From Bradyrhizobium centrolobii (GTDB lineage Bacteria > Pseudomonadota > Alphaproteobacteria > Rhizobiales > Xanthobacteraceae): DNA of 64,000 nt. A model generated the notes under the pieces. That model had not been told where the DNA came from and searched no databases. It saw nothing but the letters and a program-made list of their open reading frames with translations. Position numbers and translations under genes: made by a program. The stretch covers positions 183,042-247,041 of the forward strand of contig NZ_LUUB01000079.1 in the NCBI RefSeq assembly GCF_001641635.1. Direction: 5' to 3'. Positions 57,729 to 63,369 of this stretch are shown here, in pieces (within the stretch, counting starts at the first letter, position 1; each line of letters starts with the position of its first letter).

Positions 57729-60386
57729 ATGATCGTACGAATTTATTCAGCCTTCCTGGCGATGCTGCTCCTCTCGTCGCCATGCATGACATCGTATGCC
57801 GCTGAATCATCCGGCTCGGATACGAAGCCCGGCTGGATCGACGCGGGTTGGCGGCGAACGGTGGCGCGCCATACCGTTACATTCGATGAGACAGGGCTGA
57901 GCACCGAGGTTTTCGAGTTCGAGATCAAGGCGCTCGACGAGAAGGGCGCCGAGGCGATCGCGCAGCAGAGTTTTCAGTACAACAGCTATTTTGACGATTT
58001 GTCGTCAACGTCGCTTGCCACCCTCAAGGCAGATGGCAGCGTGGTCGCGGTCGACGAGCGTGCCATCCGCGATCAACCGGCCTCGACAGATTCCTCTTCG
58101 CCCTATTTCGACGAGGTTCGCGACAGGATCATCGCCTTTCCGCACGTTGCTCCCGGCGACAGCATCCGCGGGCGTTTGATCTACAAGGCGAAGCAGGCGA
58201 GATTTGCAGGCGAGTTTGCGCGGTTTTGGAGCGAGCCGGCGAGCCAACCGCCCGAATTGCTCGAAGTGATCGTGGACGGACCGGCATCCAGGCCGCTGCG
58301 GATCGCACTGCGCAATGTCGAGCATCGGGAAGAGAGGGTAAACGATCGAATCGTCCATCGCGTGCATTTCCGGCACGACGCGCCGAGACCCGGCCAGATC
58401 GACGATGAGGCTCTCTCATATGCCGCGCGTTTCGAGGTGAGCACATTTGCCGACTATTCCGCTTTCGCGGCGACGCTGAACGCCCGCAACGCGCTCATGG
58501 CGCGACCGGACGAGAAGATCACGAGACTCTCGCGGGAGATCGCCGGCGACGCCGTCGGCTCACGCGCGAAGATCGAGCGCATTTACAATTGGGTGGCCCG
58601 CAACATCCGCTACGTCGGAATTGGACTGGAGGACGGCGGCTGGACGTCACAGCCGGCCTCGGCCGTGCTTGCGTCGCGCTACGGCGATTGCAAGGCGCAT
58701 GCGACGCTGTTCAAGGCATTGCTTGCTGCCCAGGGCATAGAGGCAAATTTGGTCGCAGTGAACTCGGACGCAAGGTACACGCTCACCGAAATTGCCACGC
58801 CGAATTTCGATCACGCGATCGCCTATGTCCCGGAGATCGACCAGTATCTCGATCCGACCGCCTCACTCTTTGCCTTCGGCTCCCTGCCGCCGGATCTCGC
58901 GGGCAAGCCGGCCCTCAACATCGACAAGGGCACTATGGGACGCATCCCCATGATCGACCCGGCACGCTTCCGCCTAGCTGCGGAAACGGACTACGTCCTC
59001 GGCAAGGATGGGAAACGCGAGGCACGGTCGATCCTGTCCGGCGCTGGCGTCGGCGCGCAACTGGGACGCGTGGTCGCACAAGGACTGGATGATGCAGACC
59101 GGCAGATGACCGCCAAGCGCCTGATCGAGCAGGCCGGCCTGACCGGCACCGGCGACTACACCTATCCAAATCCGCGCGACCTGACGGACGACTACGCTAT
59201 CACGTCGACGTTTCAGATCAGCAAGGCCGTCGATCTCGATCGGCCTGCGCGCGTCAGGGTGTTGCCGTTGACTGATCCAAGGCGACCGTTGCTGCGGTTG
59301 GCTGCCCGCCAGACGAACGGCCGGCCCTTCGTTTGCCGGCCGATGGAATACCGCGAGGCCGCTTCGCTCACGGTCCCCGAGAACATCTTCTTCTACGAGA
59401 AACCGGCACCCGTCGCCTATTCGGCCACGTTCGAAGGGCGGACGGGCTATGGAGCCGTGCACGGCCGGATCGAGGTCAGCGGCACGATTGACCTCGATGG
59501 CCGAACCATTCGCTCCAATGCCGTTCTTCGCCTGACGCTCGATGCGCCGGTCTGCCCGGCGGAGTTTGCCCCCGCAATCGAGAAGGGGTTTGATAAGCTC
59601 GACGAGTTCAAATACGGGCTGATCGGCCTGACCCCGAAAGCGGGGGCCTCCGTCATCGACGTTGGCGCCGACTTCAGGGACGGCGTGAGCGCATATCTCG
59701 CCCATGATTTCGAACGCGCGATGGAGCGGTTGAAGCCGCTGGCCGAAATCGGCAGCGCACGTGCGCAGTCCTATCTGGGGGCGATGTACCGGGACGGAAG
59801 CGGAACGAAGCGCGACAGCGCGGAGGCGATCAAATGGTTTCGCTTGTCGGCCGAACAGGGCGATGCCTACGGCCAGGAGAATCTTGCTTACGTCTACGAG
59901 ATGGGCCTGGGAACAGCTCGGGACGAGAAGCAGGCGGCCGACTGGTACGCCAAGGCCGCGGATCAGGGCAACGCCTATAGCCAGTCCCGCCTTGCGGCCA
60001 TGTACCGGGACGGACGCAGTGTTCCCCAGGACTATGCGCTGGCTTTCGATCTGTTTTCGAAGGCAGCTGACCAGGGATTGACGTTCGCGCAGACGAACCT
60101 CGCCCTCCTGCACATCAAGGGCGAAGGCGTGCCGCAGGATTTCGCCAAGGGCATATCGCTGCTGCGCAAGGCCGCCGAACAGAACGACGGGCTGGCCCAA
60201 TACAATTTGGGGTGGGCGTATGAGAGCGGCACGGGTGTGGCCAAGGATACCCGGCAGGCGATCAAGTGGTACAGCAAGGCGTCCGATCTCGGAAACGGGC
60301 AGGCAAGCGCTCATTTGTACGAGCTGACCCGCGGAGGTTCCTTTTGGGAAACGCTCTTCGGCCGTCTCGGCCTAGCCAGATGGTAA
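57729..60386 (+). CDS. Exported DUF3857-transglutaminase-like protein with Sel1 repeats
   Basis: An 885-residue protein with three parts. The N-terminal signal peptide (1 to about 25) and DUF3857 region (about 45-240) are followed by a transglutaminase-like domain with C321 (SRYGDCKAHATLFKALL), H362 (FDHAIAYVP) and D375 (YLDPTAS), a complete triad. From about residue 680 there are five Sel1/TPR-like repeats (AQSYLGAMYRDGSGTKRDSA, AYGQENLAYVYEMGLGTARD and so on). The enzyme part could cross-link or hydrolyse amide bonds; the repeats would bind partners. This combination is unusual. The gene stands alone after a 130-base gap. Confidence 0.9.
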   Translation: MIVRIYSAFLAMLLLSSPCMTSYAAESSGSDTKPGWIDAGWRRTVARHTVTFDETGLSTEVFEFEIKALDEKGAEAIAQQSFQYNSYFDDLSSTSLATLKADGSVVAVDERAIRDQPASTDSSSPYFDEVRDRIIAFPHVAPGDSIRGRLIYKAKQARFAGEFARFWSEPASQPPELLEVIVDGPASRPLRIALRNVEHREERVNDRIVHRVHFRHDAPRPGQIDDEALSYAARFEVSTFADYSAFAATLNARNALMARPDEKITRLSREIAGDAVGSRAKIERIYNWVARNIRYVGIGLEDGGWTSQPASAVLASRYGDCKAHATLFKALLAAQGIEANLVAVNSDARYTLTEIATPNFDHAIAYVPEIDQYLDPTASLFAFGSLPPDLAGKPALNIDKGTMGRIPMIDPARFRLAAETDYVLGKDGKREARSILSGAGVGAQLGRVVAQGLDDADRQMTAKRLIEQAGLTGTGDYTYPNPRDLTDDYAITSTFQISKAVDLDRPARVRVLPLTDPRRPLLRLAARQTNGRPFVCRPMEYREAASLTVPENIFFYEKPAPVAYSATFEGRTGYGAVHGRIEVSGTIDLDGRTIRSNAVLRLTLDAPVCPAEFAPAIEKGFDKLDEFKYGLIGLTPKAGASVIDVGADFRDGVSAYLAHDFERAMERLKPLAEIGSARAQSYLGAMYRDGSGTKRDSAEAIKWFRLSAEQGDAYGQENLAYVYEMGLGTARDEKQAADWYAKAADQGNAYSQSRLAAMYRDGRSVPQDYALAFDLFSKAADQGLTFAQTNLALLHIKGEGVPQDFAKGISLLRKAAEQNDGLAQYNLGWAYESGTGVAKDTRQAIKWYSKASDLGNGQASAHLYELTRGGSFWETLFGRLGLARW

Positions 60387-60462
60387 CGACAGCAACGGGA
60401 CGCCGGCCGCTTGCGCTCGCCGTGTACTCCGGATCCAGGCCTCGAACAACGGTTCCAAAACC

Positions 60463-60491
60463 TTGACGTTCGGCCGATATGGCCTTATAGC
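60463..60491 (+). promoter_or_regulatory. Sigma70-type promoter upstream of the leader frame and paiB-argC
   Basis: TTGACG (60463-60468), a 17-base spacer and TATAGC (60486-60491) form a good promoter. The start codon of the leader frame begins only nine bases after the -10 box, so transcripts may begin at or near its A (60500). This would make the leader mRNA leaderless, as reported for the rhizobial trpL leader. Confidence 0.65.
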
Positions 60492-60499
60492 CGCGCGCC

Positions 60500-60577
60500 A
60501 TGATCAACGCCGCGACCATCCTGTTCGCCCGTCGCCGCCGCCGCAGCTTAGCGGTTTGGGCGGTCGATCGCGTTTGA
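60500..60577 (+). CDS. Putative arginine-rich leader peptide upstream of paiB-argC
   Basis: A 25-codon frame (MINAATILFARRRRR then SLAVWAVDRV, TGA at 60575-60577). It contains five consecutive arginine codons (CGT CGC CGC CGC CGC, about 60530-60544). It starts nine bases after a promoter -10 box, without room for a Shine-Dalgarno sequence. It ends 101 bases before the paiB start. Arginine codons in a leader followed by alternative hairpins and then argC suggest ribosome stalling when arginyl-tRNA is short. The alternative is chance, since GC-rich DNA makes CGC runs easily. Confidence 0.5.
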   Translation: MINAATILFARRRRRSLAVWAVDRV

Positions 60578-60590
60578 GATCATCGTCTTT

Positions 60591-60648
60591 GCCGCTGGAT
60601 CCGATCCGCGGCATTCTCTCTCCTGTCAGCGCGATCTGATCCGGCGGC
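60591..60648 (+). promoter_or_regulatory. Putative attenuator with mutually exclusive hairpins
   Basis: GCCGCTGGATC (60591-60601) can pair with GATCCGCGGC (60603-60612), a near-perfect compact hairpin with one bulge, followed by the pyrimidine-rich ATTCTCTCTCCTG. The same segment can instead pair with GATCCGGCGGC (60638-60648), with one wobble. In addition, CGGCGGC in the latter is complementary to the GCCGCCG of the arginine codon run. The segments therefore compete. There is no classic T-run terminator, so the mechanism is uncertain. Confidence 0.45.
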
Positions 60649-60678
60649 TCCCCAGAGGAGGCCCAGCAGGAGACCACG

Positions 60679-61344
60679 ATGTACACGCCACCCTTTTTCA
60701 AGCAGGACCGCGCCGCCAGCCTCAAATTCGCGGATGAGCGCGGCTTCGGCACGATGTGCGCCTTCGACGGCCACAAGCCGGTCGCCTCCGCGCTGCCGTT
60801 CTACCTGACCTACGCCGACGACGGCACGCCGCACGTGGCCTTTCACGTTGCCCGTCACAATCCGCTGGTAAAGCTTGCGGACGGCACGACGTCCTGGCTG
60901 CTCGCGGTCAACGGCCCCGATGCCTATGTGTCGCCGGACTGGTACGTCTCGCCGGACCAGGTGCCGACCTGGCTCTACCAGTCGGTTCACCTGACCGGCC
61001 CGGTGCGGCTGCTGTCGGGCGACGAGTTGTCGGTGCAGATCGACACGCTCAGCGACAAGTTCGAGAGCTGGCTGTTGCCGAAGGCGCCGTGGACGTCGGC
61101 CAAGATGACGGCCGGGCGGCTCGAGACGATGAAGAAGGCGATCGTTGGTCTGGTCATGACGGTTGAAGAGGTCGAGGGCAGCTTCAAGCTCAACCAGCAC
61201 AAGTCGGATGCCGATTTCGCGGCGGTCGCGAACGCGCTTGGCGACGGCGATGCCGACGCGAAGCAGATCTCACACTTGATGCGGCAGACCCGGCCGCTAG
61301 CTTTTGCAGACGACACGAACATGCTCGAAAGGAGCGCGCCATGA
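60679..61344 (+). CDS. PaiB-like FMN-binding protein (pyridoxamine phosphate oxidase fold)
   Basis: A 221-residue protein. The first half has the FMN-binding split-barrel pattern of PaiB ([40 protein letters not shown] and ARHNPLVKL). PaiB proteins are described as negative regulators of degradative enzymes and sporulation in Bacillus, but their flavin or heme-like cofactor role in proteobacteria is unclear. GCAGGAGACC lies before the ATG. Its stop overlaps the argC start as ATGA, so the two are translationally coupled. This makes a link to arginine metabolism plausible. Confidence 0.88.
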
Positions 61345-62324
61345 GCCTCGCTGATACCAAGCAAGCACCGACCACCGGCGTTGCGAAGAAGCCCGCCACC
61401 GTTTTCGTCGACGGCGGCTCCGGCACGACCGGGCTCGGCATCAACGAGCGGCTCAAGCTCCAGAGCGACGTCGCGGTGAAGACCATCGCCGACGACAAGC
61501 GCAAGGATCCCGCGGCCAAGAAGGCGCTGATGGAGGAGGTGGATCTCGTCATCCTCTGCCTGCCCGATGATGCCGCAAAGGAGACGGTTGCGCTGGTCGA
61601 CAGCATGGGCGCCTCGGCGCCGAAGGTGCTGGACGCCTCCACTGCGTACCGGGTCGCGCCCGACTGGGCCTATGGCTTTCCGGAGCTGACGCCCGACCAG
61701 GCCGGCAAGATCAAGGCCGCGAAAAAGGTCTCCAATCCCGGCTGCTATCCGACCGGTGCGATCGCGCTGCTGCGGCCGATCGTCGATGCCGGCCTGCTGC
61801 CTCAGGACTATCCCGTCACCGTCAACGCGGTGAGCGGCTATTCCGGCGGCGGCAAGTCGATGATCGCGAGTTTCGAGGACGGCAGCGCGCCGTCGTTCGA
61901 GCTCTACGGTCTCGGCTTCGAGCACAAGCATCTGCCGGAGATGCAGCTTTACTCCAACCTGACGCGGCGGCCGATCTTCATCCCCTCGGTCGGCAACTAC
62001 CGGCAGGGCATGCTGGTCTCGGTGCCGCTGCAGCTCGACACGCTGCCGGGCAAGCCTGATGGCGCGGACCTGCAGGCCGCGCTGGCAAAGCGCTACGCCG
62101 GTTCAAAATACGTCTCGGTGATGCCGCTTCAGAACGAGGCGACCAAGGGCGGCCGGCTCGAGCCGGAGGCGCTGAACGAGACCAACATGCTCGAGCTCTA
62201 CGTCTTCGCCAGCGACAAGTATCACCAGGCGGTGCTGGTCGCGCGGCTCGACAATCTCGGCAAGGGTGCGTCCGGCGCTGCCGTGCAGAACATGCGGCTG
62301 ATGCTGGGCCTGCCGGAGGAGTAG
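61341..62324 (+). CDS. argC: N-acetyl-gamma-glutamyl-phosphate reductase (type 2)
   Basis: A 327-residue arginine-biosynthesis enzyme that reduces N-acetylglutamyl phosphate with NADPH to the semialdehyde. The nucleotide-binding N terminus is [17 protein letters not shown] (about 21-37), the catalytic cysteine is C135 in NPGCYPTGA, and [16 protein letters not shown] is a conserved substrate region. The length is that of the short type 2 ArgC. It overlaps the PaiB-like gene. The other arginine genes are not near. The leader frame at 60500 may control it. Confidence 0.95.
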
Positions 62325-62502: not shown

Positions 62503-63369
62503 CTATGCGACGATCCATTCGAGCAGGGCGTTCTGGGCGTGCAGAAGATAGGCTTTTGCAGCCGGACTCTGGCAGGCCGGATGTGACATCGCGTCGGCGC
62601 TGACCTCCTGGCCCCTGGTCACGGGCGGGCAGGGCAGGAAAATGACGTCGGGGCGGCATCTATCGAGCAGCGATGCCGATATCTGATATTTGAGAAGCTC
62701 ATCCTCGCGCGCGCCGTCAGGCCAGCAGTCGGTGATGATCACGTCCGCATCGAACAAGGGATCCAGGCGGGACGTGGCGGTGAAGTTTGGACTCGCGATG
62801 TCCTTGATATGCCAGTCTTCCGGATAGATCTGGGTCACCTGGAGCGGCAGCGCGATCGAGGCTTCAACCCATGAGCGGAGTATGTTTGCGGCGGGGGACA
62901 CGCCGACGACCTTCAGGCCATCGAGCCTGGCTCTCTTGCTCCTGACATAGGCGAGATCGCCGAGCGTTTCACAGGGGTGATTTGATCGCGTTCTCGCATT
63001 CACGACCGGCGCGCCGGCGCTCGATGCAAGCTCTCGCAGCGCCGACAGCTCCCTGGTGCGCACCATCAGGACGTCGAACCAGTTGTCGAGATATTTCCCC
63101 AGATCGGCAGTTGTTTCGCGGACATTGAATCTGATCGGCGTCTGGACGCAGACGCCGCCCATTGCCTGCACGCCGAGATCGAAGGCCGTGGTATTCCTCC
63201 ATCCACCGTCGTCGACAATGAGAGCCACGCGCTTGCCGGCAAGGCTCAGCGGCATGCTACGGTCGTTCCAGGCTGCCGCCAGGACCTGCGCGCGGTCGAC
63301 GATCGACAGGACGGTGTCCGGTCGCAGATCGTGGAATTCGAGAAAGTCCCGGTTCAACTCGCGACGCAT
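62503..63369 (-). CDS. Aspartate/ornithine carbamoyltransferase-fold protein with altered active site
   Basis: A 288-residue member of the transcarbamylase superfamily. NHPCETLGDLAYVRSKR (about 130-146) and PCPPVTRGQEVSADAM (about 252-267) are clear family landmarks. The carbamoyl-phosphate loop, normally STRTR, reads GGWRN (55-59), and the HPxQ motif is HPCE. R104 (LMVRTRE) and H131 are kept. It is about 20-30 residues shorter than typical ornithine carbamoyltransferase. It may use a different substrate or be a non-catalytic paralogue. It faces argC, whose end it converges on, which could be coincidence or a link to arginine metabolism. Confidence 0.85.
   Translation of the reverse strand: MRRELNRDFLEFHDLRPDTVLSIVDRAQVLAAAWNDRSMPLSLAGKRVALIVDDGGWRNTTAFDLGVQAMGGVCVQTPIRFNVRETTADLGKYLDNWFDVLMVRTRELSALRELASSAGAPVVNARTRSNHPCETLGDLAYVRSKRARLDGLKVVGVSPAANILRSWVEASIALPLQVTQIYPEDWHIKDIASPNFTATSRLDPLFDADVIITDCWPDGAREDELLKYQISASLLDRCRPDVIFLPCPPVTRGQEVSADAMSHPACQSPAAKAYLLHAQNALLEWIVA

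Follow-up and report, generated by a model that had tools for sequence, protein, structure and literature searches.

Arginine-codon leaders upstream of argC and argD as candidate transcription attenuators in Bradyrhizobium and related genera

Introduction

Textbooks treat arginine synthesis as the standard example of repression by a protein, ArgR; leader-peptide attenuators are known for other amino acids, in the trp, his, leu, ilv, thr and phe systems. ArgR and AhrC are both protein repressors of arginine genes. In searches of an open-access library we found no report of an arginine attenuator acting on a bacterial operon for arginine synthesis; two earlier works, Lopatovskaya 2010 and Vitreschak 2004, could list arginine leaders. 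The closest case found to the leader described here is orf34 of the Salmonella speF leader, in which two consecutive Arg codons report on arginine by making the ribosome pause and so shifting the mRNA between alternative structures, with Rho termination, unfolding of the ribosome-binding site and RNase G all taking part and with ornithine decarboxylase as the target (PMC6386406). In fungi, the arginine attenuator peptide of arg-2 and CPA1 is encoded by an upstream open reading frame (ORF) and acts at high arginine by arrest of the nascent chain at its stop codon, a mechanism described for eukaryotes (PMC11550727). A leader that begins directly with its start codon is found in Sinorhizobium, where rnTrpL starts with the AUG of trpL (PMC10117765).

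Here we analyse a putative leader of this general kind in Bradyrhizobium centrolobii, a member of a genus that NCBI taxonomy places in the Nitrobacteraceae. It lies in a stretch of 64,000 nucleotides (hereafter the window; contig NZ_LUUB01000079.1, positions 183,042 to 247,041) and precedes an operon containing argC. Like trp-type attenuators, it combines a short ORF rich in codons for the end product with alternating RNA segments that can form either a putative antiterminator or a putative terminator; unlike those systems, it concerns arginine, stands before argC (with a further leader before argD), possesses an extra distal helix and, in Bradyrhizobium, ends in a weak U tail. With speF orf34 it shares consecutive Arg codons within a leader ORF, but it precedes an arginine-synthesis operon rather than an ornithine-decarboxylase gene (PMC6386406). 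It resembles the fungal arginine attenuator peptide (PMC11550727) in placing an ORF before an arginine-synthesis gene, and Sinorhizobium trpL (PMC10117765) in its leaderless layout, which for the argC leader we infer from promoter spacing.

Results

A short frame with five arginine codons upstream of paiB-argC

A promoter-like element read from the sequence, TTGACG-N17-TATAGC (60463..60491, + strand; TTGACG at 60463-60468, a 17-base spacer, TATAGC at 60486-60491), is followed, nine bases 3' of its -10 box, by the ATG (60500) of a 25-codon leader ORF, MINAATILFARRRRRSLAVWAVDRV, which closes with TGA at 60575-60577 (60500..60577, +) and contains the presumptive control codons, CGT CGC CGC CGC CGC, as a run of five Arg (60530..60544, +). 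The promoter with its N17 spacer, the ATG nine bases on, the frame and the Arg run had all been named in the original prediction, and each is confirmed. The leader occupies the interval between the end of a Sel1/transglutaminase gene (60386) and paiB (60679), its ATG lying 179 nt 5' of paiB-argC. The promoter spacing would put the start of transcription at or near the leader ATG, making the transcript leaderless; a stricter sigma-70 promoter scan did not list this promoter. Rfam gave no match in 59800-61400 at E ≤ 1, and an NCBIfam search with the 25-residue leader peptide found nothing.

ATG-started ORFs of 12-40 codons with at least five consecutive Arg occur once in the window and 1.1 times per simulated 64 kb (60 windows of the same composition), so that the Arg run alone is not significant, much as the original prediction had warned in calling CGC runs common in GC-rich DNA. 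Arg runs of at least three behind TTGAC-N15-20-TAT were found once in the window, in the argC leader itself, and in none of the 60 simulated windows.

The operon anticipated downstream is present. Its first structural gene is paiB (FMN_bind_2; 60679..61344, +), which overlaps argC (61341..62324, +; TIGR01851 argC_other, 420.5 bits) by four bases, and this argC is the sole gene in the genome above the cut-off of either ArgC model (TIGR01850 or TIGR01851). Beyond argC lies a convergent ornithine-carbamoyltransferase-like gene (62503-63369, -) that scores 151.7 against 306 bits for PRK00779, well under the cut-offs for that enzyme, and is perhaps a divergent carbamoyltransferase. The ArgR model TIGR01529 had no match in the genome at E ≤ 1, the same search being positive in 11 of 14 control genomes. 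The leader would share with ArgR and AhrC the end-product control of arginine synthesis, unlike them without a protein repressor.

Immediately before paiB, a UCC stretch and the Shine-Dalgarno sequence AGGAG (60668-60672) can form a small hairpin, seen by eye (60649..60672, +). In three paiB-bearing loci of other genera (L204, L205 and L223), a near-perfect hairpin, again seen by eye, covers the paiB Shine-Dalgarno sequence, which suggests a second, translational layer there.

Conservation of the leader within Bradyrhizobium

A 374-base query matched 194 of 195 genomes of the genus; since 82 of its bases belong to paiB and some of the matches are weak, they do not prove the leader in each of the 194. 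Direct reading identified the leader in 121 of 121 Bradyrhizobium-type loci (80 named records, 40 others and the window), among which some genomes occur twice, so that counts of distinct sequences (94 leaders, 91 in the folding analysis) are more trustworthy than 121. Two loci dropped by the TATA[GC] filter, L079 and L100, both carry the leader. CTTGAC, TATA and ATG are invariant in all 35 aligned leaders (35 of the 42 non-redundant ones) and the promoter-to-ATG spacing is kept; the ORFs of the 94 distinct leaders are 24 or 25 codons long, with a longest Arg run of five in 58, four in 31 and three in 5.

In every one of the 118 script-parsed genus loci besides the window, argC lies downstream. 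The order is leader-paiB-argC with an ArgC of TIGR01851 type in 100 and with one of TIGR01850 type in 6, and in the remaining 12, all of them checked, the leader precedes paiB and a tandem argC(01850)-argC(01851). These tandem pairs under one leader (L119, L122, L133, L134, L139, L140, L074, L094 and L106-L109) are possibly an intermediate of enzyme exchange. One record, titled Frankia sp. RB7 (L105), has a Bradyrhizobium-type leader-paiB locus with 85% protein identity and is probably a mislabelled or contaminated assembly.

Distribution across the family and order

An RNA model built from 32 genus sequences was run on 149 genomes of the family, 7 of them in the genus. At E ≤ 1e-4 it matched 65 of the 142 non-genus genomes, and argC followed on the same strand in 65 of 65 (its position behind the leader being taken from coordinates for G316 and G330). 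Fifty-seven of these loci were parsed by pattern, L173 and L176 by a second pattern, and L224, L225, L229 and L329 separately; L328 (R-C-R-R) and L231 (R-C-R) were judged by eye, and L328 and L329 enter no statistic. Gene orders were counted in 177 parsed loci besides the window, those of the genus included, with ArgC types assigned by best similarity: in the family the leader stands directly before argC(01850), without paiB, in 26 loci, before paiB-argC(01850) in 15 and before paiB-argC(01851) in 17. Four TIGR01850 proteins were confirmed above the cut-off. Whether or not paiB intervenes, and whichever of two distant families the ArgC belongs to, the leader stands ahead of argC; paiB as its true target is ruled out by the 26 loci that place it directly before argC. 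At one locus (L195), a different open frame takes the place of paiB and argC begins 636 nt from the leader ATG.

We find the leader in 32 of the 47 family genera sampled: 27 script-parsed, including Bradyrhizobium itself, two more (g27 and g42), and three (g11, g29 and g31) recognized in the argC upstream regions of genomes that the model did not match at this threshold. Among the 77 of 142 non-genus genomes that lacked a match at E ≤ 1e-4, 20 were read, of which 5 carry a leader and 15 do not, indicating that the element is patchy. An eroded leader precedes argC in L231, from another genus, where promoter and ATG remain, the Arg run is down to R-C-R and the hairpin is altered.

A survey of the order (82 of 120 genomes had a TIGR01850-type argC; 71 upstream regions were read) yielded an Arg leader with a terminator in 4 of 70 regions outside the family, the negatives being called by pattern and by eye and several Arg runs resembling the end of the preceding gene; the one in-family region, L266, showed no leader. 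All four come from a single other family (f20), in which 4 of 4 genomes have a 16-codon leader (MFSTVTTRRRRILIQR, MITAATSTRRRILIQR, MNTLSTWTRRRHLTLR and MSPAFTRSRRSIFIQR) and a canonical U-run terminator before argC; the fourth, L330, reads R-S-R-R. Folding predicted a clean switch in one of the three f20 leaders folded, and in the other two the stalled and fed states hardly differ. On plasmids, the search gave nothing beyond matches of 38 bases within an Aminobacter gene of the YeiH family.

Coding constraint on the leader peptide

The distance from the ATG to a GCGG anchor that lies after the Arg run falls in a single phase for all 94 distinct genus leaders and for 56 of 57 scored family leaders, taking values of 43, 46, 49, 52 and 55, with 38 once. 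The distance from the stop codon to the hairpin is distributed 21/20/18 over the three phases for family leaders and 82/12/0 for those of the genus. The longest Arg run is 2-5 in 59 of 59 script-parsed family leaders, and the Arg residues stay constant while their codons change among CGC, CGT and, once, AGG. The remaining residues differ widely from genus to genus, a pattern that speaks against arrest by the nascent peptide. In-frame length changes and a kept Arg run together are what a trp-type, product-codon-rich leader ORF would display, and predict that the frame is translated.

Mutually exclusive helices and a terminator-like hairpin

Four helices, 1:2, 2:3, 3:4 and 3:5, are possible among five RNA segments, the first of which coincides with the control codons. 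Segment 2 (60551..60564, +) pairs either with segment 1 (60541-60544) or with segment 3 (60582..60601, +), the partner common to segments 2, 4 and 5: the Arg run has its partner in 60551-60554, and segment 2 as a whole pairs also with 60582-60595. Helix 3:4 is a GC-rich, terminator-like hairpin (60591..60612, +; segment 4 is 60605-60612) in which 60591-60595 pairs with 60608-60612 and 60597-60599 with 60605-60607, followed by a U-rich to pyrimidine tail (60613..60623, +). Segment 5 (60638..60648, +), an 11-bp partner of 60591-60601 in helix 3:5, becomes available only after read-through.

The original prediction had proposed two exclusive hairpins, of which the perfect 11-bp pairing of 60591-60601 with 60638-60648 stands, and the pairing of 60591-60601 with 60603-60612 in full does not, as it leaves a one-base loop. 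It had also paired the Arg run with the last segment and missed the main, kept partner, 60551-60554; pairing mainly with the last segment is ruled out. We therefore revise the likely switch to 2:3 versus 3:4 with its U-rich tail, while retaining helix 3:5 as real.

The pairs of helix 3:4 are each kept in 31 or 32 of 32 genus sequences, with almost no variation; those of 1:2 likewise hold in nearly all of the 32, and 2:3 and 3:5 include weaker pairs. Just outside 3:4, 46 of 54 family loci have a C-G, G-C, A-U or G-U pair at the flanking positions. Beyond the genus this outer pair shows covariation, with 23 of 33 entries paired once they are collapsed by genus (permutation p 0.0007); within Bradyrhizobium it is formed in only 4 of 119. 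The corresponding test position in 2:3 was paired in 16 of 29 entries after genus collapse, which is not significant (p 0.17), and in 3 of 119 within the genus. Scored against dinucleotide-shuffled segment 2, the duplex of segments 2 and 3 has a mean z of -2.95 in 80 of the 94 genus leaders and -2.03 in 59 family leaders. Under the patterns used, no hairpin was called in L218, L223 and L228, and no segment-2 motif in L214, L221, L232 and L234.

Tails with at least five U in eight positions follow the hairpin in 68% of 119 genus loci versus 1.3% of control positions, in 48% of the 25 family loci with argC directly downstream versus 3.4%, and in 29% of 31 family paiB loci versus 1.4%. The tail of the Bradyrhizobium argC leader, AUUCUCUCUCC, contains no U run, and a terminator scan of the window did not list hairpin 3:4. 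The hairpin core, GCCGC[CT]GG...CCGCGGC, is almost invariant across the family, more so than intrinsic termination should need; a protein or a trans-acting RNA may make use of it. For helix 3:5, the best 12-nt pairing averages 10.46 in 102 genus loci, 10.10 in 31 family paiB loci and 9.32 in 25 direct-argC loci, compared with 8.25, 8.12 and 8.36 for shuffled downstream sequence. The helix lies beyond the putative terminator and may act in translation or on the stability of the RNA. Together with the near-invariant hairpin it hints at a second, post-transcriptional layer.

Predicted switching with simulated ribosome positions

We folded the leader with a ribosome placed at successive codons, its edge assumed at P-site +16 and kinetics ignored. 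In the window, the predicted probability of helix 3:4, P(3:4), is 1.00 both with the ribosome at the stop codon and without a ribosome, and 0.20, 0.09, 0.06, 1.00 and 1.00 at Arg1 to Arg5; the full formation of 3:4 at Arg4-5 counts against an attenuator. Over 91 genus, 25 direct-argC and 31 family paiB leaders, respectively, mean P(3:4) is 1.00, 0.97 and 0.98 with the ribosome at the stop, 0.37, 0.33 and 0.42 at Arg1, and 0.91, 0.80 and 0.84 without a ribosome. Placing the stall at codon 5, ahead of the Arg run, gives 0.76, 0.33 and 0.52, so that in the family the drop in the fold model is not specific to Arg codons. Shuffling the stretch from the Arg run to the stop raised P(3:4) at Arg1 from 0.33 to 0.64 in the genus (a sample of 37 leaders), from 0.33 to 0.65 in the direct-argC group and from 0.42 to 0.88 in the family paiB group, removing about half of the drop in the first two groups and most of it in the third. 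In the model, then, the leaders behave as a trp-type attenuator should, the genus most clearly so: helices 2:3 and 3:4 exclude each other in silico, and a protector helix is predicted to restore 3:4 when the leader is not translated.

A second arginine-rich leader upstream of argD

The second match of the RNA model in the B. centrolobii genome (C45:29836-29975, E 0.0087) identifies a leader before argD, which encodes acetylornithine transaminase (PRK03715, 648.5 bits versus a cut-off of 568). This locus (L159, C45:29785-30095) has the layout of the argC leader: CTTGAC, a weak -10 box and an ATG that opens the frame for the peptide MINSRTNRRAAFRRRTRDDDGLRHVRRRR, then a canonical terminator, GGCCGCACCCGCAAAGTGCGGCC with TTTCTGCTTTT after it, directly before argD. 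Its DNA was matched in 57 of 60 genus genomes, and in the best 30 of the 57 matched loci (L332-L361) the leader is present in 30 of 30, with an ORF of 29-30 residues of which 10-13 are Arg; 14 of these 30 failed the promoter pattern, and all show the leader. The terminator lies in the region 186-219 nt upstream of argD, again in the best 30 of 57. In the fold model, this terminator is kept in nearly all ribosome positions (mean probabilities 1.00, 1.00, 0.99, 0.93 and 1.00), with no clear antiterminator. The next six matches of the RNA model (L160-L165) showed no leader in the pattern test.

Discussion

We interpret the argC leader as an arginine-specific, ribosome-mediated transcription attenuator of the (paiB-)argC operon, a reading to which we assign a probability of about 0.78. 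Conservation, coding constraint, gene linkage, helices and predicted switching were computed; the transcription start, termination and the response to arginine are inferred. Supporting this reading are the presence of argC behind all 65 non-genus matches, the in-frame length changes, the predicted switch, the U-rich tails, the covariation at 3:4, the canonical terminators of f20, the argD leader and the empty search for ArgR. The attenuation that the original prediction had ventured gains further from a leader that stays linked to argC where paiB is absent and across ArgC families. Loss of the frame or of the Arg run among relatives, which that prediction had named as grounds for refutation, is not what we observe: the ATG, the run and the paired segments persist in the 121 genus loci read and in many other genera. 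Our confidence is lowered by the control with a stall before the Arg run and by the partial effect of shuffling, and raised by the second Arg-rich leader, at argD.

Under this attenuator model, RNA polymerase would begin at the leader ATG or close to it, and the first ribosome would translate the leader behind the polymerase. With charged tRNA-Arg plentiful, the ribosome would reach the stop codon and cover segment 2, leaving segment 3 free to form hairpin 3:4, whose U-rich tail would then end transcription (predicted P 1.00). When charged tRNA-Arg is short, the ribosome would stall at the first Arg codons and cover segment 1, so that 2:3 would pair, 3:4 would be blocked (predicted P(3:4) 0.06-0.20) and polymerase would continue into paiB-argC. 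If the leader is not translated, 1:2 would form and termination would be kept. Helix 3:5 could form after read-through.

The Arg codons might instead act mainly on translation, with the leader ribosome choosing among 2:3, 3:5 and a hairpin over the paiB Shine-Dalgarno sequence and thereby regulating translation of paiB(-argC) rather than termination. Helix 3:5 is kept, its sequence changes occurring in step to give 12 of 12 pairs in L204, L210 and L211, and the Shine-Dalgarno hairpins seen by eye in L204, L205 and L223, together with a Bradyrhizobium tail that is not a U run, point the same way. Yet in 26 family loci argC comes straight after the leader, and there helix 3:5 is weaker and the tails are U-rich; both the f20 and the argD leaders have canonical terminators, and the starved state would leave segment 5 free and favour the Shine-Dalgarno hairpin, the wrong direction for such control. 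We consider this explanation rather unlikely. A basic run of residues could itself slow the ribosome, and the peptide is conserved within Bradyrhizobium, as it might be if the nascent peptide stalled the ribosome on arginine or another ligand in the manner of TnaC or the fungal arginine attenuator peptide; but outside the Arg run the peptide varies strongly across the family, the argD leader encodes a different one, and much of the C-terminal conservation coincides with RNA pairing, so we give such arrest very little weight.

The near-invariance of the 3:4 core would also suit a leader that functions chiefly as a small trans-acting RNA or a functional peptide, as rnTrpL and peTrpL do in Sinorhizobium, its linkage to argC being secondary. 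That linkage nevertheless held in all 65 non-genus matches and the peptide body is not conserved, which makes a principal role of this kind scarcely probable, though the leader may have it as a second role. As for a CGC run that arose by chance in GC-rich DNA and regulates nothing, a five-Arg run is expected about once per 64 kb and would by itself be at chance level, yet it is conserved in the genus and in many other genera of the family; this contradicts chance as the explanation, and we regard its likelihood as negligible.

Beyond the single operon, we think it on balance likely that the attenuators form an arginine regulon acting in place of ArgR, with Arg-codon leaders controlling at least argC and argD in Bradyrhizobium. 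They would be the first arginine-specific attenuators of bacterial arginine synthesis, and the argC leader, present in 32 of 47 family genera sampled, would have stayed fixed while the ArgC family was exchanged and paiB came and went. If this is true, the exchange of ArgC types under one leader would be a natural experiment in which control is tied to the place and not to the enzyme, and the leaders, in a genome without a detectable ArgR, would supply a direct explanation of arginine sensing in Bradyrhizobium and its relatives, one that bears on nitrogen metabolism in the nodule.
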